Virus record (IMG/VR): IMGVR_UViG_3300032523_001603
Span: 1 to 20,904 of that record
Origin: a virus
Strand: one strand, 5' to 3'
Length of the DNA: 20,904 nucleotides
The notes below the pieces were generated by a model. That model did no database searches. It was not told the origin of the DNA and saw only the letters and a program-made list of their open reading frames with translations. Made by a program: the position numbers and the translations under genes. Shown in pieces: positions 6,232 to 20,904 of the stretch (the stretch's first letter is position 1; each line of letters starts with the position of its first letter).

Positions 6232-6243
6232 CGGAAATACTAG

Positions 6244-6317
6244 CGCCCCCGCCAGGGTTCGAACCTGGAACCTACAGATTAGAAGTCTGTTGCTCTATCC
6301 AATTGGGCTACAAGGGC
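6244..6317 (-). tRNA. tRNA-Arg (anticodon UCU)
   Basis: On the minus strand a full cloverleaf folds: acceptor GCCCTTG/CGGGGGC, D-arm with one C-A mismatch, anticodon stem ACAGA/TCTGT with loop CTTCTAA (anticodon TCT, reading AGA), and T-arm CCAGG/CCTGG with TTCGAAC loop. The discriminator base is G and the CCA end is not encoded. It lies 12 bases beyond the end of the reductase gene and may be processed from that transcript. It probably supplements translation of AGA codons. Confidence 0.93.
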
Positions 6318-8646: not shown

Positions 8647-8678
8647 TTAATCTCTATTGAAATTAATCTCTATTGAAA
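8647..8678. repeat. Exact 16-bp tandem duplication at a gene end
   Basis: TTAATCTCTATTGAAA occurs twice back to back (8647-8662, 8663-8678). On the minus strand each unit contains TTTCAATAG; the upstream copy supplies the last codons and stop of the 209-residue gene, the second repeats them in the gap. Probably a replication slippage event. Confidence 0.9.
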
Positions 8679-9299
8679 TTCTTCAATTAAGAAACCGACC
8701 TTAGCCATTTTCCCTATTACTTGACCATCTAGGGGAGCATGCATTGAATCTTCGGTCACCTCTCTATCGAATGCGGCGTACAGCATGGCGGGATATGCAT
8801 ACCTTTTTATAGTGTTGATAGCATTTTGAGAGAATTCCATCAACCCACCCCATTTAACACCCTTGCCCAATGAGTACTTATAGGGAATTGAAAACAAATA
8901 TATATCTGGTTTATTCAAGGTGTCGTTGCCGTCACAATGTATGACGGTGAGGCATTCAGTGACATTGGAGTTCGGTTCAATAAACGCAAGTGACAGTTCT
9001 TTGGTTTGAGGAGTTGGGGCAACGTAGCCTTCAGCCACAAAAGTCAATGATTCGATGCCGAGTTCAAACCTTAAAACTCTCATCAATTCGTAGCATCTAC
9101 CAAATCTGGATTGATGGTCCTCTTTCATGAACCTGGATTCCATTTGGGCACATAAAAGCGGCTTGTTATCCCGCCATGCAAAAAAATTAAAAGAGAGGTC
9201 TTCTCCTATGCCTTCTTTTTTGACTATCAAGCCCTTGGCCAACTGCGAGGCGGTGAGTGTCAAGGCAATCTTTGAAAAAGGGTCTAGGTAGTCGTCCAT
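8670..9299 (-). CDS. Hypothetical protein, 209 residues
   Basis: A well-formed soluble protein of mixed alpha/beta character with no family I can name. Features: an N-terminal helix-rich part, a central run of beta-like segments (LTFVAEGYVA; LSLAFIEPN; CLTVIHCDGND), a YLFSIPYKYSLGKGVKWGG segment (about 133-151) and a helical C-terminus ending in GFLIEEFQ. Scattered cysteines form no metal motif. The ATG at 9299 lacks a Shine-Dalgarno but has TAATGT 6 bases upstream (9306-9311), so leaderless expression is likely. It is divergent from the small basic protein at 9358, sharing a control region with a perfect inverted repeat. Confidence 0.65.
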   Translation of the reverse strand: MDDYLDPFSKIALTLTASQLAKGLIVKKEGIGEDLSFNFFAWRDNKPLLCAQMESRFMKEDHQSRFGRCYELMRVLRFELGIESLTFVAEGYVAPTPQTKELSLAFIEPNSNVTECLTVIHCDGNDTLNKPDIYLFSIPYKYSLGKGVKWGGLMEFSQNAINTIKRYAYPAMLYAAFDREVTEDSMHAPLDGQVIGKMAKVGFLIEEFQ

Positions 9300-12449: not shown

Positions 12450-12478
12450 ACTATATCGGATAAATCTATTAGCGACAA
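12450..12478 (-). promoter_or_regulatory. Sigma70-type promoter for the DUF932 gene (leaderless)
   Basis: On the minus strand: TTGTCG (12478-12473), a 17-base spacer, and TATAGT (12455-12450). Six bases (GGTGGC) follow and then ATG at 12443, so +1 is predicted on the A of the start codon. Confidence 0.65.
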
Positions 12479-14310: not shown

Positions 14311-14925
14311 ATGTCTACAAGCAAATCACACCGCAAGGAATTTGAAGAAGATGAAAAAACACTGATAATTCAGTTGCGAGATGAAGGAAAATCAGTCGAT
14401 ACTGTTGCTGCAATTTTGATGGTCGGCAAAGAACGGGTTCGCAGATTTTGCAAAGAAAACAACCTTGGCGTCTACCAAAATAAGAAGAATCCCCGATGCA
14501 ATATCGCCAATACTCAGAAGACGATTGACTTTGACAAGTATCCAGATTTTACAAAATCGGCGTGCAGACAGATGGACACGGCATTATTTTTTCCTGGTGC
14601 CCCACCTCAGGGCCGAATAGCAAGGCAAAAGTACGAACAACAGATTAAGGCAATCACAACAGTTTGCCAAGATTGCCAGATTCAAGAAGAGTGCCTAAAT
14701 TACGCCCTCGAAACCGAACCGTACGGGATTTGGGGCGGTGCAACAGAAATTGAACGCGAATACTTAAGAGCAAAACTTAAAATTGAATGTCAACGTGAAA
14801 TCACGCTCACGCGCGTTGCCAGGAAAGCCCGCCTCGGATTTATGTCCCCCGCTTTGGCCCCAACATACGATGCCCAATTCGGTTCATCAGTGGTAGTTAA
14901 AAGGCGCTTAGCAAAAAGTGTCTGA
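14311..14925 (+). CDS. WhiB-family Fe-S transcription regulator with N-terminal HTH
   Basis: 204 residues. WhiB core: Cys85, Cys119, Cys122, Cys128 (C-x33-C-x2-C-x5-C) ligating a [4Fe-4S] cluster, FFPG (93-96), CLNYAL (128-133) and the GIWGG turn (139-143) followed by TEIERE. WhiB proteins bind the primary sigma factor region 4 in actinobacteria and steer host or phage promoters. Unusually, about 75 residues precede the core, with a helix-turn-helix-like segment (LIIQLRDEGKSVDTVAAILMVGKERVRRF), and a 45-residue basic tail follows (RKARLG, VVKRRLAK). AAAGGG precedes the ATG. The stop overlaps the primase-helicase GTG by 8 bases. Likely an early regulator. Confidence 0.88.
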   Translation: MSTSKSHRKEFEEDEKTLIIQLRDEGKSVDTVAAILMVGKERVRRFCKENNLGVYQNKKNPRCNIANTQKTIDFDKYPDFTKSACRQMDTALFFPGAPPQGRIARQKYEQQIKAITTVCQDCQIQEECLNYALETEPYGIWGGATEIEREYLRAKLKIECQREITLTRVARKARLGFMSPALAPTYDAQFGSSVVVKRRLAKSV

Positions 14926-17638
14926 CGTTTCCGTTTCGCCCCAACTTCAAAACATTTTGGACCGCCTGCAAGGTGTGGTTCGTGTTTCGGGTGGGTTCCA
15001 AGCGAAATGTCCTTGCCGTAGCGACGACGAAAACCCATCGTTTTCGGTATCCGAGGGAGACGGTGGGAAGGTGGTCGTTTACTGTCATGCGGGGAGATGC
15101 GACACGAATCAAGCATGCACCGCAATGGGGATAAGCATGGCCGATTTATACCCAGTTAAACAATCGAAAAAAATGGAATTAGTTGCCAAGTATCCCTATC
15201 TGGATGAAAATGGAACTTTGCTTTTTGAAAAACTTCGTTACGTTGATTCATCAACTGGGAAGAAAGAGTTTCGGCAACGTAAACCTGACGGAAGAGGCGG
15301 ATACGAATACAAATTGGGAGATACGCCAAGAGTTTTATACAATCTCCCAAAAGTTTTAAAAGCAAAAAAAGAAGGCACACCAATCTGGGTAGTAGAAGGA
15401 GAAAAGGATGTTGAGACTCTCGTCAAAATGGGTATATGTGCGACCACTATGCCCAATGGGGCTGGTACATGGTTGCCCATCCATACCCAAGCCATCGCTG
15501 GTGCGATTGTGGAAATCATCGCCGACAAAGACGATGCGGGAATCAAACACGCAAGAGACGTATATGAAGAACTGATTGACGCTGGATGTGATGTTCAAAT
15601 TTGGACATGCTCAAAGGGCAAGGACATCACTGACCACGTTAAATCTGGTGGTTCACTTGAACAACTTGAACAACTTGATTTGACCTCAACACACACGGAA
15701 CAAGAAGCACCAAGTCAGGTAATTGTCGCCAGTGATTCACACGAGGGGCGCGCGATAGGGGAAATTTACGACATTTTTGACCGAAGTGACATGTCAGAGA
15801 GTCAAAAGTTGTCGCGCGCTCAATCAATTATTTCACGTACATCCACGACAAAAATTGTCGATACAGGGCGGCTCGTAACTTGGTCAGACTTTGTAAAAGA
15901 GACGGATGACGATTCATATGACTGGGTTATCCCTGGCCTTCTTGAGCGAAATGAACGAGTCATTGTGGTCGCCGCAGAGGGTGTTGGCAAGCGTGCTGCA
16001 ATAGATAGTGTGATACCTACTCCTTCTGGTTGGACTACTCTTGGCGACATTTCTATTGGGGATAAAGTATTTGACCGTTTCGGCAACGTGGTCAACGTCA
16101 CTTATGTCAGTCCTGTAGAACCAAACCCAGACGCATACCGTGTCACTTTTTCTGATGGCAACTTTATTGATGCTGATGCCGAGCACCAGTGGTATACGGA
16201 GACCTTAAACGAACGTAAAAAACGCAAGGTTGGCGGTGTTCGTACAACGGTAGAAATCCGAGACACACTCATCTCTGGTAGGCAGACAAAAGCACTCAAT
16301 CACGCCATCCCAACAACCAAGCCTCTGAATCTCCCAGAAGTAAAACTACCCGTTCCTCCATACACGCTTGGAGCATGGCTGGGTGACGGAACCACTATTG
16401 ATGGGTCTATCTGTTCTGAGGATGATGAAATCCTTGAAGCAATCCGCAATGACGGATATGTTATTCGCAAGCGCGAGTCAACCACAAACATATATGGAAT
16501 ACTCGGGTTACAGGTTCAACTAAAAGAACATGGGCTATACGGCAACAAATACATTCCTGTCATCTATTCACGAGCATCTTACGAACAGCGACTCGCACTT
16601 ATCCAAGGTTTAATGGATACTGATGGCCATGTTCGTAACGATGGGCTGTGTGAGTTCTCGGTAAATCTTAAAGTATTAGCCGAAGGGTTCTTGGACCTAA
16701 TACAAACACTCGGCATCAAAGCGACAATGCATGAAAGCGATTCCAAACTCTACGGCAGAGTAACTGGCACGAGGTACAGGATTTCTTTTAAGACCGACCT
16801 TCCAGTTTGTAGACTGAAACGCAAAGAAGTGCGACTCCATAAGAAACTAAAGACTCCACGCTCCCTGTATCGTTACATAGTCTCAATAGAACCGATAACT
16901 CCAGTTCCAATGAGGTGTATTTCTGTTGACGGACCAGACAATACCTATCTGATTGGTGATGCTTACATTCCTACACATAACACAATGTTGGCCAGGCAGG
17001 TGGCCATTTGCGTAGGTATGGGAATCCACCCATTTACGTACCAGCCGATACGCCCGCAAACGACGCTGTCGGTAGATTTGGAAAACCCAGAAAGAATTAT
17101 TCGACGCACCTCTCGTTCAATATATGCAGCGGCCCATGCGGTTTCCAAAAATGACAATCCACAGGCTCATCTATTGATAAAACCCCAAGGCTTAAATCTT
17201 CTTCGGGTTGAAGACCGTGCAGTTCTTGAGGAAATGATTGAGAAAACACAGCCAGCAATCCTTGTCATGGGCCCCTTGTACAAGTCCTTCATCGACCCAG
17301 GCGGACGCACCAGCGAAGCCGTTGCCATTGAGGTCGCGAGATACCTCGATGTCATCCGTGATGTTTACCAATGCGCCATGTGGCTTGAGCACCATGCACC
17401 ATTGGGGACGTCGATGACCACGCGAGAATTGCGTCCTTTTGGTTCCGCCGTGTGGTCAAGGTGGCCAGAGTTCGGCGTTTCTTTACAGCCAGACCAAACT
17501 GGCATGGCATGGCATTACGACGTCAGACATTTCAGAGGTGCTCGTGACGAGCGTCAGTGGCCAACTAGAATTAAGAGGGGGAAAAGATTCCCATTCGAGG
17601 TGGTCGATTGGCCAGCCTCAATTAAGGCGCCCCTATGA
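14918..17638 (+). CDS. Intein-containing primase-helicase
   Basis: 906 residues as translated, about 576 after intein removal. N-terminal zinc-binding primase part: CPC (31-33) and CHAGRC (56-61), with DENPSFSV between. TOPRIM-type part: VVEGEKD (158-164) and IADKDDAG (201-208). The helicase/ATPase part has EGVGK (354-358) interrupted by the intein, rejoining with TMLARQ (689-694) to give a GVGKT Walker A, then ILVMGPLYKS (781-790) as the Walker B region and FGSAVWSRWPEFG, HFRGARDERQWP and RGKRFPF near the end, as in RepA/AAA_25-type actinophage helicases. It should prime and unwind DNA at the phage fork. GTG start overlaps the WhiB gene; the ATGA end overlaps the next gene. Activity requires splicing because the intein splits the P-loop. 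Confidence 0.9.
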   Translation: MSDVSVSPQLQNILDRLQGVVRVSGGFQAKCPCRSDDENPSFSVSEGDGGKVVVYCHAGRCDTNQACTAMGISMADLYPVKQSKKMELVAKYPYLDENGTLLFEKLRYVDSSTGKKEFRQRKPDGRGGYEYKLGDTPRVLYNLPKVLKAKKEGTPIWVVEGEKDVETLVKMGICATTMPNGAGTWLPIHTQAIAGAIVEIIADKDDAGIKHARDVYEELIDAGCDVQIWTCSKGKDITDHVKSGGSLEQLEQLDLTSTHTEQEAPSQVIVASDSHEGRAIGEIYDIFDRSDMSESQKLSRAQSIISRTSTTKIVDTGRLVTWSDFVKETDDDSYDWVIPGLLERNERVIVVAAEGVGKRAAIDSVIPTPSGWTTLGDISIGDKVFDRFGNVVNVTYVSPVEPNPDAYRVTFSDGNFIDADAEHQWYTETLNERKKRKVGGVRTTVEIRDTLISGRQTKALNHAIPTTKPLNLPEVKLPVPPYTLGAWLGDGTTIDGSICSEDDEILEAIRNDGYVIRKRESTTNIYGILGLQVQLKEHGLYGNKYIPVIYSRASYEQRLALIQGLMDTDGHVRNDGLCEFSVNLKVLAEGFLDLIQTLGIKATMHESDSKLYGRVTGTRYRISFKTDLPVCRLKRKEVRLHKKLKTPRSLYRYIVSIEPITPVPMRCISVDGPDNTYLIGDAYIPTHNTMLARQVAICVGMGIHPFTYQPIRPQTTLSVDLENPERIIRRTSRSIYAAAHAVSKNDNPQAHLLIKPQGLNLLRVEDRAVLEEMIEKTQPAILVMGPLYKSFIDPGGRTSEAVAIEVARYLDVIRDVYQCAMWLEHHAPLGTSMTTRELRPFGSAVWSRWPEFGVSLQPDQTGMAWHYDVRHFRGARDERQWPTRIKRGKRFPFEVVDWPASIKAPL
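15992..16981 (+). other. Intein with LAGLIDADG endonuclease, class 3 type
   Basis: Residues 359-688 of the primase-helicase (330 aa). N-terminal splicing block: IDSVIPTPSGWTTLGDISIGD (from 362). Block B ends EHQW (His423, Trp425). Endonuclease motifs: LGAWLGDG (484-491) and LIQGLMDTDG (561-570). Block F has Cys667 (MRCISVDG) and block G is PTHN with Thr686, His687 and Asn688, followed by Thr689 as +1. Residue 1 must be Arg359, because removing exactly 359-688 restores GKT. Arg cannot act as the canonical N-terminal nucleophile, while Trp425/Cys667/Thr686 reproduce the WCT triplet of class 3 inteins, in which the block F Cys attacks. Both LAGLIDADG acidic residues are present, so homing may be active. 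Confidence 0.9.
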
Positions 17639-18300
17639 GCAATACTCCAATGACAAGAGAATTCCTTGCAGAAAGGGACTCTCGAATTTTCAAGATGCGC
17701 CAAGCGGGTGTGGCAATCTCGGAAATTTCAAAAAGATTTAATGTTTCTACCAAAATTGTCGGGTTAGCCGTATCTCGCCAATTAGAGAAACTCAACAAAG
17801 AAAATTCTCTTGCCTACCCTGAAGTTTTGCGAATGGAATTGGAGCGTTTGGACGCCATGCAGGCTGCTCTTTGGCCTTTAACGCAACACCGTAAGGTGAC
17901 TTTGGATGATGGGACTGAGGTTTCGGTTGAACCAGACATGAAGGCGGTACAACAGGTTTTAGCAATAATGGATAGACGCTCAAAATTACTGGGGATGGAA
18001 CAGACAAACGTCAACATCCACGCCGACGTATTACAGGGTACTCAACAACCAATTAGGGCGACTCTGGCTGGCCAAGAAGGAATGCCCAAGGAAATAAACA
18101 AATTTGACCCAGAGAGTGAAGCAAGGAAGTTGCTAGAACTGATGGCCATTTCGGGGGTCTTGCCCAGAGAAACTGTCGACCAGATGCTTGGACTACCGCC
18201 TATTATCGATGCTGAGGTGATTACAGATGAACCAAGACAACTTGAAAGCGGCGATGGACAAAGTGACGGAGACACTGACTCCGACGGTATCGACAATTAG
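17635..18300 (+). CDS. HTH protein resembling a small terminase subunit
   Basis: 221 residues. N-terminal helix-turn-helix (SRIFKMRQAGVAISEISKRFNVSTKIV, about 16-42), then a helical part with ELERLDAMQAALWP (68-81) and AVQQVLAIMDRRSKLLGM (104-121), the LDAxxxALWP...RRxKLLG pattern I associate with small-terminase-like phage proteins, which recognise packaging sites as oligomers. The C-terminal third is acidic and Gly/Asp-rich (DGQSDGDTDSDG). No large terminase is in the window, and it is coupled (ATGA) to the replication gene, so a replication-linked DNA-binding role is a real alternative. The 3' end overlaps the next gene by 74 bases. Confidence 0.62.
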   Translation: MSNTPMTREFLAERDSRIFKMRQAGVAISEISKRFNVSTKIVGLAVSRQLEKLNKENSLAYPEVLRMELERLDAMQAALWPLTQHRKVTLDDGTEVSVEPDMKAVQQVLAIMDRRSKLLGMEQTNVNIHADVLQGTQQPIRATLAGQEGMPKEINKFDPESEARKLLELMAISGVLPRETVDQMLGLPPIIDAEVITDEPRQLESGDGQSDGDTDSDGIDN

Positions 18301-18532
18301 CAAAGAGGACAAGGGCCCTGCGGACAAGCAGGTTTTGATTCGCACCACCGAACCAGAGCGCGATAGATGGAAAAAAGCCGCAGAAAAAGAAGGCATTCCC
18401 CTGTCTCAATTTATCCGCGACCTACTCAACAAACGAGCGACGGAATTGCTGGAATGCGCGCATCCAGTAAATGAGAGAAGATATTACCCGTGGGCTGAGT
18501 TTTGCTTAAAGTGCAATACTAGATTGAGATAA
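18227..18532 (+). CDS. Ribbon-helix-helix protein with C-terminal zinc knuckle
   Basis: 101 residues. Residues about 35-75 form a ribbon-helix-helix (QVLIRTTEPERDRWKKAAEKE, then IPLSQFIRDLLNKRA), the Arc/MetJ-type DNA-binding fold. The tail carries Cys77, His79, Cys93 and Cys96 (ECAHP, CLKC), a probable zinc site. The ATG at 18227 is supported by GAGGTG 7 bases upstream, giving a 74-base overlap with the preceding gene; a later ATG (18254) would still keep both domains. It could be a repressor or an accessory factor at the nearby origin. The fold is fairly sure, the target unknown. Confidence 0.7.
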   Translation: MNQDNLKAAMDKVTETLTPTVSTISKEDKGPADKQVLIRTTEPERDRWKKAAEKEGIPLSQFIRDLLNKRATELLECAHPVNERRYYPWAEFCLKCNTRLR

Positions 18533-19090: not shown

Positions 19091-19354
19091 GTGAATATTA
19101 TTGACAGCCACGAAGTATCAATAGACGCTTTATCGGGCAACAAAGATGTTTGGTCATGTAAATGGTCGGGCAGTGACACGGTGCAAATATTTAGGGGCGA
19201 CTTCATCAACAACAGGATTCTCTACAATTACCTGTTCACATTGGACTGCGACCAGTCCATGACCATTGAAACGTTTTGCGAATGGGCGGCTGAATTGCTG
19301 CAAGAACTCATTAAAAGAGATTATGAAATATATGAAAAAGAAATCATCAAATAG
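19091..19354 (+). CDS. Small hypothetical protein, 87 residues
   Basis: GTG start six bases after GGAG of repeat A. The protein has a beta-like N-terminal half (VWSCKWSGSDTVQIFRGDFINN) and a helical C-terminal half (TIETFCEWAAELLQELIKRDYEIYEKEIIK). Two or three cysteines form no recognisable motif. No signal peptide or membrane segment. Its stop shares one base with the GTG of the dioxygenase gene (TAGTG), indicating coupled translation. Function unknown. Confidence 0.6.
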   Translation: MNIIDSHEVSIDALSGNKDVWSCKWSGSDTVQIFRGDFINNRILYNYLFTLDCDQSMTIETFCEWAAELLQELIKRDYEIYEKEIIK

Positions 19355-20154
19355 TGAATACCTCGCCCATGAAAAACCCATTTACAGATTCATACGTGTC
19401 TGGTTACATGTTATTCCAAAACCTGTTCAATCATGAGGGCATACCCGCAACTCCGATTTATGCAAATTTCGAGACTTCAGGGATGCTTCCCCAGACGGAC
19501 ATCTTGAAAGCAAAGGCCTCGATGTTTGGCCAGATGATTGGTTACATTCAGGAACAAAATGGTTTGACAATCCATAATCTGGTCCCAAACAAAAATACCG
19601 AATATCAGCAGATTTCGTCTTCGTCCAAGGCGCAACTGGAACTCCATACTGAATTGGCTTTCCATCCCTACAAGCCAGATTACGTGCTCTTGATGTGCTT
19701 GCGCGGTGACATTGAAGCCAAAACTACTGTGGCGACGCTTAGTGACATCATGCGAAATGTGGATGCGGCTACGGAAAAGGTATTGCGGCAACCACTTTTC
19801 ATTACGTCTTTGGACGTTTCTTTTCAGAATGAGGGACAGGCGGACACATTGATAACTACAGCAATACTTGTGGATAATTCAATCGTGTACGACGGAACCC
19901 TGATGACTGGAACAACCCCAGAAGCAAAACATGCAATGGAACATCTAAATTATGCAATCAATTTGGCAACTCGCAAGATTGCACTCATGACTGGAGACTT
20001 GCTTATCATCGACAACAGCACATGCATCCATGGCCGTGCACCGTTTGTGCCGAGATACGACGGAACTGACCGATGGATACAGCGAGCATTGGTGCGAAAA
20101 GTATTGCCAGCACAAGAACACAGGAATGGCAACATCATCACCACCAAGTTGTAG
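19354..20154 (+). CDS. Fe(II)/2-oxoglutarate dioxygenase, clavaminate synthase / asparagine oxygenase-like
   Basis: 266 residues with the TauD/CAS-like double-stranded beta-helix signature. HTE (98-100) gives His and Glu iron ligands, AFHPYKPDYVLLMCLRGD (102-119) is typical of the amino-acid hydroxylase branch (AsnO/VioC-like), GDLLIIDNSTCIHGRAPF (214-231) carries the distal His226, and Arg244 (WIQRALV) is a likely 2-oxoglutarate anchor. Such enzymes hydroxylate free amino acids or amino-acid-derived substrates. The substrate here cannot be told from sequence. GTG 19354 overlaps the preceding stop; ATG 19369 is an alternative start. Last gene before the putative origin. Could modify a host metabolite, protein or nucleic acid component. 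Confidence 0.85.
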   Translation: MNTSPMKNPFTDSYVSGYMLFQNLFNHEGIPATPIYANFETSGMLPQTDILKAKASMFGQMIGYIQEQNGLTIHNLVPNKNTEYQQISSSSKAQLELHTELAFHPYKPDYVLLMCLRGDIEAKTTVATLSDIMRNVDAATEKVLRQPLFITSLDVSFQNEGQADTLITTAILVDNSIVYDGTLMTGTTPEAKHAMEHLNYAINLATRKIALMTGDLLIIDNSTCIHGRAPFVPRYDGTDRWIQRALVRKVLPAQEHRNGNIITTKL

Positions 20155-20161
20155 ATGTTGG

Positions 20162-20183
20162 ATAAATCTAACCAGAGTTGGAG
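20162..20183. repeat. Direct repeat copy B with RBS but no clear gene
   Basis: ATAAATCTAACCAGAG (20162-20177) and GGAG (20180-20183), 7 bases after the dioxygenase stop. In contrast to copy A, no ATG, GTG or TTG follows at a good distance. A frame ending TGA 20276-20278 runs from here but would need an ATC start. Confidence 0.8.
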
Positions 20184-20315
20184 CCATCACAAAATTTGTC
20201 TCGCGTGCGGCCGCGGCTGGCGGCACTGTCGGGAAAGTCCCGATAAAAAACAAACACATGTTCGCACTACACAAATGAGTCATCCCCACCTTACCCACAC
20301 CCCATCCCCACCCCC

Positions 20316-20388
20316 TGTGGACAACACGGCTATCCACAGCCTGTGGACAACACGGTTATCCCCATGGTTATCCACATGGTGTGTACAA
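20316..20388. repeat. Cluster of six DnaA-box-like nonamers
   Basis: TGTGGACAA at 20316-20324 and 20342-20350 (reverse of TTGTCCACA, the actinobacterial consensus), TTATCCACA at 20368-20376 (perfect E. coli type), and one-mismatch copies CTATCCACA (20330-20338), TTATCCCCA (20356-20364) and TGTGTACAA (20380-20388). Starts are 12-14 bases apart and orientations alternate at first. Confidence 0.85.
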
Positions 20389-20663
20389 CCGATGTCTATT
20401 AGCATCCCATGCGAACAAGCCGTAATGGTAGGGACGGGTACGCATGAGTCAAGCGCAGTCTCCAGTCGCATGAAGCATCACTCAAACACGCCGTCAGCAA
20501 CGCCCCTAGGAGGATGACCCAAGCAACACAGCGCCGTCTTTCGTCGCCTGACGAACCACGAACACACTCAACAGTATGACGCATCGCTGTCGCCTGACGC
20601 AAGGGACTGTGTCGTGTGAAGGTACTGACCCAGCGTCATAGCGTTGGCGTTTGTATCAGCACA

Positions 20664-20770
20664 CATCGCATGACCCATCGCATGACGCATCGCATGAGAC
20701 GCATCCCTTCATCGCATGAGACGCATCGCATCCCTTCATCGCATGACGCATCGCATGACGCATCGCTCAT
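20664..20770 (+). repeat. Iteron-like direct repeats (CATCGCATGA)
   Basis: Six exact copies start at 20664, 20676, 20688, 20710, 20737 and 20749, with variants at 20724 and 20761. Spacing is mostly 12-13 bases (one 22, one 14), so copies lie about one helical turn apart. Related GCATGA fragments occur earlier (about 20441 and 20465). Confidence 0.9.
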
Positions 20771-20860: not shown

Positions 20861-20904
20861 ACCCACTACGCGACCAGCCATGTGAGATAATCTATGTGTC
20901 GTCA

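Follow-up and report, generated by a model that had tools for sequence, protein, structure and literature searches.

What does a dense cluster of DnaA boxes do in the genome of a phage that encodes its own replication protein? The question is raised by IMG/VR record IMGVR_UViG_3300032523_001603, analysed here as one stretch of 20,904 bases (the window). The window is the whole IMG/VR entry, yet it represents a genome fragment. An initial annotation read the cluster and its neighbouring 10-bp repeats as an iteron-plasmid-type origin and proposed host-DnaA-dependent replication or a phage-plasmid lifestyle.

Gene content and probable host

The window encodes a B12-type ribonucleotide reductase, a GH25 endolysin and the proteins listed in Table 1. 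The WhiB-domain protein, together with weak protein relatives of window genes in actinobacteriophages, points to an actinobacterial host, probably freshwater actinobacteria. WhiB serves as an actinophage marker (PMC10202952). A search for cultured relatives by DNA similarity returned none. A prophage or plasmid in host genomes was considered and set aside, as the single cellular-genome match is L290 (RGFZ01000057.1). This contig, found in an Oxalobacteraceae MAG, encodes relatives of many window proteins including WhiB and is probably a misbinned actinophage contig.

The AlphaFold model of the HTH protein (pLDDT 67.7), for which the protein alignment took in nine sequences, resembles a small terminase subunit. 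It has a BFVD match to a terminase small subunit (E=6e-6), and its top PDB matches are small terminases, but with an E value of 0.12 at best. The protein does not look like a plasmid Rep or initiator. PHROG 645, which corresponds to this protein, carries the label 'Rnase E', whereas model and fold search both point to an HTH protein akin to small terminases. The dioxygenase has more than 100 relatives among viral contigs; its NCBIfam matches to GntD, clavaminate synthase and VioC arginine hydroxylase all fall below the curated cut-offs.

Several other features were observed along the window. A tRNA-Arg(TCT) gene is located at 6243-6317 on the minus strand, and a 16-bp perfect tandem repeat, TTAATCTCTATTGAAA, at 8647-8680. 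The very large late protein of relatives (from 6507 in L114 and from 6374 in L009) bears an N-terminal D-x-D-G-D-G...QDGTPWERP motif. A sequence resembling this motif, DRDGDGVVFDGTPDEKP, is present in the window gene 66-1766.

Table 1. Features of the window discussed in the text
Feature	Position	Strand	Remark
WhiB-domain protein	14311..14925	+	points to actinobacterial host
Phage primase-helicase, Toprim + AAA_25, with intein	14918..17638	+	phage's own replication protein
HTH protein like phage small terminase subunits	17635..18300	+	AlphaFold model, fold search
Ribbon-helix-helix (RHH) protein, Arc/NikA-like	18227..18532	+	candidate phage regulator
TauD/clavaminate-synthase-like Fe(II)/2OG dioxygenase	19354..20154	+	Pfam TauD 2.6e-12; last gene before spacer
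Conserved ~88-bp element, GGATAAATCTA ... AAAATTTG ... GGAAAGTCCCG	20158..20245	+	alignments A1-A3; opens spacer
Palindrome CAAACACATGTTCG resembling an SOS/LexA box, CGAACN4GTTCG with one mismatch	20251..20264		sole site with at most one mismatch in window
DnaA box TTACCCACA, 1 mismatch	20291..20299	+	seventh box, beyond the six of the initial annotation
DnaA box TTGTCCACA, exact	20316..20324	-	actinobacterial high-affinity form (PMC4285127)
DnaA box CTATCCACA, 1 mismatch	20330..20338	+	
DnaA box TTGTCCACA, exact	20342..20350	-	
DnaA box TTATCCCCA, 1 mismatch	20356..20364	+	
DnaA box TTATCCACA, exact	20368..20376	+	
DnaA box TTGTACACA, 1 mismatch	20380..20388	-	
Low-complexity tandem repeat, six exact CATCGCATGA + two degenerate	20664..20770		not conserved in relatives
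TGAGATAATCT, extended -10-like promoter (TGnGATAAT)	20883..20893	+	just upstream of large late gene in relatives

The DnaA-box array and the 10-bp repeats

The cluster lies in a non-coding spacer of about 750 bp that begins after the dioxygenase gene and reaches the end of the record. The spacer has a GC content of 54% and is GC-richer than the rest of the record. The six DnaA nonamers described previously are found exactly where they had been placed, within 73 bases (20316-20388) at a spacing of 12-14 bases, and the distances between their starts are 14, 12, 14, 12 and 12. Their forms are also as claimed, with two exact copies of TTGTCCACA, one exact copy of TTATCCACA and three boxes of one mismatch each. 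TTGTCCACA corresponds to the actinobacterial high-affinity form of the DnaA box (PMC4285127). Elsewhere in the 20.9-kb window, a single additional exact box and eight with one mismatch are scattered.

The cluster score of 10 was never reached in 4000 Markov-1 simulations of the spacer (best 3), nor in 4000 simulations of the box core itself (best 4). A 26-bp tandem duplication makes up part of the array, which means that some of the boxes are not independent of one another. Judged from their sequences, the boxes of the window array are genuine DnaA boxes of host type. No close relative carrying the same boxes as this array was found. No AT-rich unwinding element is present next to the boxes in the window, where the AT content peaks at 68% per 40 bp.

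The initial annotation also described eight copies of a 10-bp repeat on a helical period. The copies are there, six of them exact CATCGCATGA (starting at 20664, 20676, 20688, 20710, 20737 and 20749) and two degenerate (20724 and 20761), but the phasing is not. The starts are spaced by 12, 12, 22, 14, 13, 12 and 12 and drift from the helical phase. Iterons have constant length and spacing, whereas the spacing here ranges from 12 to 22. Conservation of the repeat in relatives with the same gene order had been proposed as a check; CATCGCATGA is absent from the spacer of every relative, and other low-complexity tandem repeats occur in these spacers. The term low-complexity tandem array describes the copies better than iterons.

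A conserved element opens the spacer

The spacer starts with an element of about 88 bp that is conserved in relatives at almost fixed length. An nhmmer profile of the element matches 22 loci at E<=1e-10, while the best match to reversed sequences has an E value of 4.1. The alignments identify it as a newly recognised element and as the conserved part of the spacer. An RNA element was considered and rejected, as RNAalifold gives no consensus structure. Rfam searches with the element and the stretch returned no family at gathering score; the sole match, PreQ1, lies far below its own gathering score. The element is also not a conserved peptide, because the frame that is open in the window is interrupted by stops in L159 and L116.

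At the other end of the spacer, the TGAGATAATCT string is identical in five relatives (L005, L008, L009, L015 and L117). The DnaA boxes of the window are located about 500-600 bp upstream of this conserved late promoter. In two lineages (L114, 6031-6100; L159, 6413-6490), the DnaA/SOS array is followed after about 100 bp by a strong promoter of the TTGACA type and by a small ORF, neither of which is present in the window.

A further short sequence, GATAAATCTA, occurs at window positions 12459, 19063 (as ATAAATCTA) and 20161. Most relatives checked contain two to five copies, and in the 136-kb G004 five copies fall inside 9.3 kb. In many cases the sequence is longer and reads TTGGATAAATCTAACCAGA; this imperfect palindrome is repeated only within the early-gene block and is possibly an operator or a terminase site.

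SOS boxes in the spacers of relatives

After the 88-bp element, relatives bear DnaA boxes, CGAACN4GTTCG palindromes, both, or neither. In five relative contigs totalling 275 kb, all nine exact palindromes fall within this spacer, compared with 0.26 expected; the five contigs count as four lineages because G001 and G002 are near-identical. The Streptomyces SOS consensus is tCGAAC-N4-GNNCGa (PMC9380542), and the SOS box of M. tuberculosis recA has the core CGAACAGGTGTTCG (PMC8607333), which recurs without a change in L005, L008 and L009. By its match to these forms, the palindrome is an actinobacterial SOS box. The corresponding site of the window lies at almost the offset at which L005 has its first exact box. 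As it has one mismatch, and a palindrome with at most one mismatch arises in 69 of 3000 spacer shuffles (2.3%), the LexA part is well supported in the relatives only.

The combination of sites varies among the carriers. L005, L008, L009 and L020 contain one to three palindromes and no DnaA cluster. In L114, L117, L431, L432 and L491, three exact DnaA boxes are interleaved with two or three exact palindromes, and L431 and L432 have one further palindrome with a single mismatch. L159 and L288 contain five DnaA boxes interleaved with three palindromes within a 44-bp repeat, and L473 and L445 contain six to seven exact DnaA boxes with one or two palindromes. Neither type of site is present in L015, L017, L018, L116 and L281. 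Because the near relatives L005, L008 and L009 keep SOS boxes without DnaA boxes, the latter are an accessory, exchangeable part of the spacer. Support in the tree of carriers is too low for counting gains and losses of DnaA boxes.

The DnaA-box positions are well preserved in one lineage. In the alignment of L114, L431, L432 and L491, 26 of 27 DnaA-box columns are invariant, compared with 61 of the 102 intervening columns (Fisher p=1.4e-4). The sole change turns one form of the DnaA box, TTATCCACA, into another, TTGTCCACA. This preservation suggests that DnaA binding is probably used in the lineage.

DnaA and SOS boxes in other phages

Tailed phages had been said to seldom carry DnaA boxes. 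This view is contradicted by at least 119 viral contigs in which three exact boxes on the same strand fall within 90 bp, and by the cases of T5 and a T7-like phage. Single regions of viral contigs hold up to 8-9 exact boxes. The T7-like Shigella phage VB_Ship_A7 (MK685668; L497/L499) has four exact boxes in its direct terminal repeats, at both ends, and Squashvirus phages of Microbacterium have a box pair about 350 bp from the left end.

In 65 viral-contig stretches, a DnaA box and an SOS box lie no more than 20 bp apart. The chance expectation for the whole collection is about 6, a rough figure that assumes uniform bases and roughly 4e10 bases. Seventeen of the 65 matches belong to one family, CGAACC[GA]CAGTTCG, and were excluded because long open frames span the site, which is probably coding. 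Among the stretches outside this family, 36 show additional boxes of either type no farther than 250 bp away. Five lineages found by the DnaA and SOS pattern alone (L445, L473, L477, L479 and L491) also bear the 88-bp element. In two unrelated contigs, L329 and L471, DnaA and SOS boxes are located upstream of a terminase-like gene. A looser pattern search of the collection gave mostly unrelated loci, and a match in Corynebacterium phage Juicebox was dropped, as it falls in an annotated gene.

No report of paired DnaA and SOS boxes in phages was found in searches of the open-access literature. We see an even chance that many phages, including unrelated ones, share a cis-module that pairs host DnaA boxes with SOS (LexA) boxes and would sense or sequester both regulators. 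In the group described here, the pairing stands beside the 88-bp element.

Possible roles of the spacer

Our best explanation, put forward tentatively and with somewhat less than even confidence, is that the cluster serves as a docking array to which host regulators bind. The conserved non-coding spacer around it separates the early genes from the late, structural-type genes. The explanation is based on the sequences, their clustering, the conservation of box positions in one lineage and the pairing of sites in other phages. The spacer typically begins with the 88-bp phage element, followed by at least one SOS (LexA) box and then by DnaA boxes in varying number; low-complexity filler and the extended -10 promoter of a large late gene complete it. 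It would be bound by the host's DnaA and, in many of the relatives, by the host's LexA as well. The most likely effect would be to tie phage late transcription to the replication and SOS state of the host, and/or to titrate scarce host DnaA and LexA as phage copies build up. Joint repression by DnaA and LexA is known for E. coli uvrB (PMC6015884), and chromosomal DnaA titration has been reported (PMC12371093). A docking array is in line with DnaA and SOS boxes replacing one another, with the window's lack of an AT-rich region and with the fact that the phage has replication proteins of its own. As related and unrelated phages place DnaA and LexA sites in similar stretches, a docking platform is preferred to a plasmid origin. 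Several observations weigh against it. The SOS-like site of the window itself carries a mismatch, the 500-600 bp to the late promoter is farther than usual for direct repression, the site is one where a phage origin or a genome end is also expected, and five relatives have neither type of site.

The main rival is a DnaA-assisted phage origin, a serious one, though less likely in our estimate. The 88-bp element would be the core for a phage protein, and DnaA bound to the array would open the duplex or aid helicase loading. The DnaA-box cluster in the window, the large arrays in single regions of other viral contigs, the conserved core beside the boxes and the conserved box positions in the L114 lineage are all consistent with such an origin. 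So is an AT-rich stretch that follows the array in L159 (85% AT over 40 bp). However, close relatives with the same gene order are devoid of DnaA boxes, and the window spacer is GC-richer than the rest of the record, with no strongly AT-rich segment. The phage encodes its own primase-helicase, and the spacer lies about 8-12 kb from this gene in G001/G002 and G013. Relatives also show no GC-skew switch at the spacer, in contigs that are fragmentary and with a skew confounded by gene direction, which leaves GC skew uninformative as an origin test. A genome-end element ranks third and is improbable. The spacer would then be a region for packaging or first-step DNA entry, with boxes and palindromes as in the T5 injection stop signal (iss) or a terminal repeat. 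The T5 signal has been described as containing repeats, palindromes and DnaA boxes (PMC13250531), and the boxes of phage A7, the Squashvirus phages, L329 and L471 are in keeping with this role. Yet the spacer is internal to contigs of 136-140 kb in G004 and G013, no terminal repeats are seen in G001-G004 and G006, and SOS boxes would be unnecessary for such a role.

The iteron-plasmid-type origin with a phage-plasmid lifestyle, as initially annotated, is very unlikely. The DnaA boxes adjoin short repeats, superficially like P1 oriR or iteron plasmids, and the RHH protein is weakly similar to mobilisation proteins. But the 10-bp repeats are neither conserved nor helical, and a Pfam search of the approximately 20 ORFs in this fragment revealed no Rep, ParA/B or integrase. 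The HTH and RHH proteins are without good plasmid relatives, and the one match to a cellular genome is probably the misbinned phage contig.

DnaA and LexA are two central bacterial regulators, acting at the start of replication and at the gate of the DNA-damage response. If the spacer binds both, a docking array would provide the phage with a way to read or disarm the replication state of its host, at defined and testable sites. The presence of DnaA boxes in a phage genome is by itself no evidence for an origin or a phage-plasmid, because the T5 injection stop signal and the terminal repeats of a T7-like phage also carry them. DnaA is not known to be used in the replication of T7-group phages.

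Comparison with known systems

Phage P1 oriR and iteron plasmids have DnaA boxes near short direct repeats. In the window group, by contrast, the repeats are not conserved, no initiator gene is seen, and relatives have SOS boxes. The extrachromosomal mycobacteriophage origins, of the RepA or RNA type, are likewise non-coding segments of actinobacterial phages, but they are linked to parABS or repA, and the main text describing them does not mention DnaA (PMC7157519).

GIL01, a Betatectivirus, resembles the present group in having a phage promoter region with host SOS boxes as operators (PMC4551915). It differs in being a temperate Bacillus phage in which LexA acts at the lysogenic promoter; DnaA boxes are not mentioned in the abstract of that report.

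The T5 injection stop signal (Tequintavirus) shares with the window a non-coding spacer, DnaA-box pairs spaced by 12 bp, repeats and palindromes. All four T5 boxes with at most one mismatch are located inside the annotated iss, where they form two 12-bp-spaced pairs. The T5 signal differs in its location within a 10-kb terminal repeat, and neither the 88-bp element nor actinobacterial SOS boxes are known from it. The E. coli uvrB promoter is alike in that DnaA and LexA boxes are interleaved in one regulatory region (PMC6015884). It belongs to a chromosomal gene, whereas the sites described here form arrays in a phage spacer.
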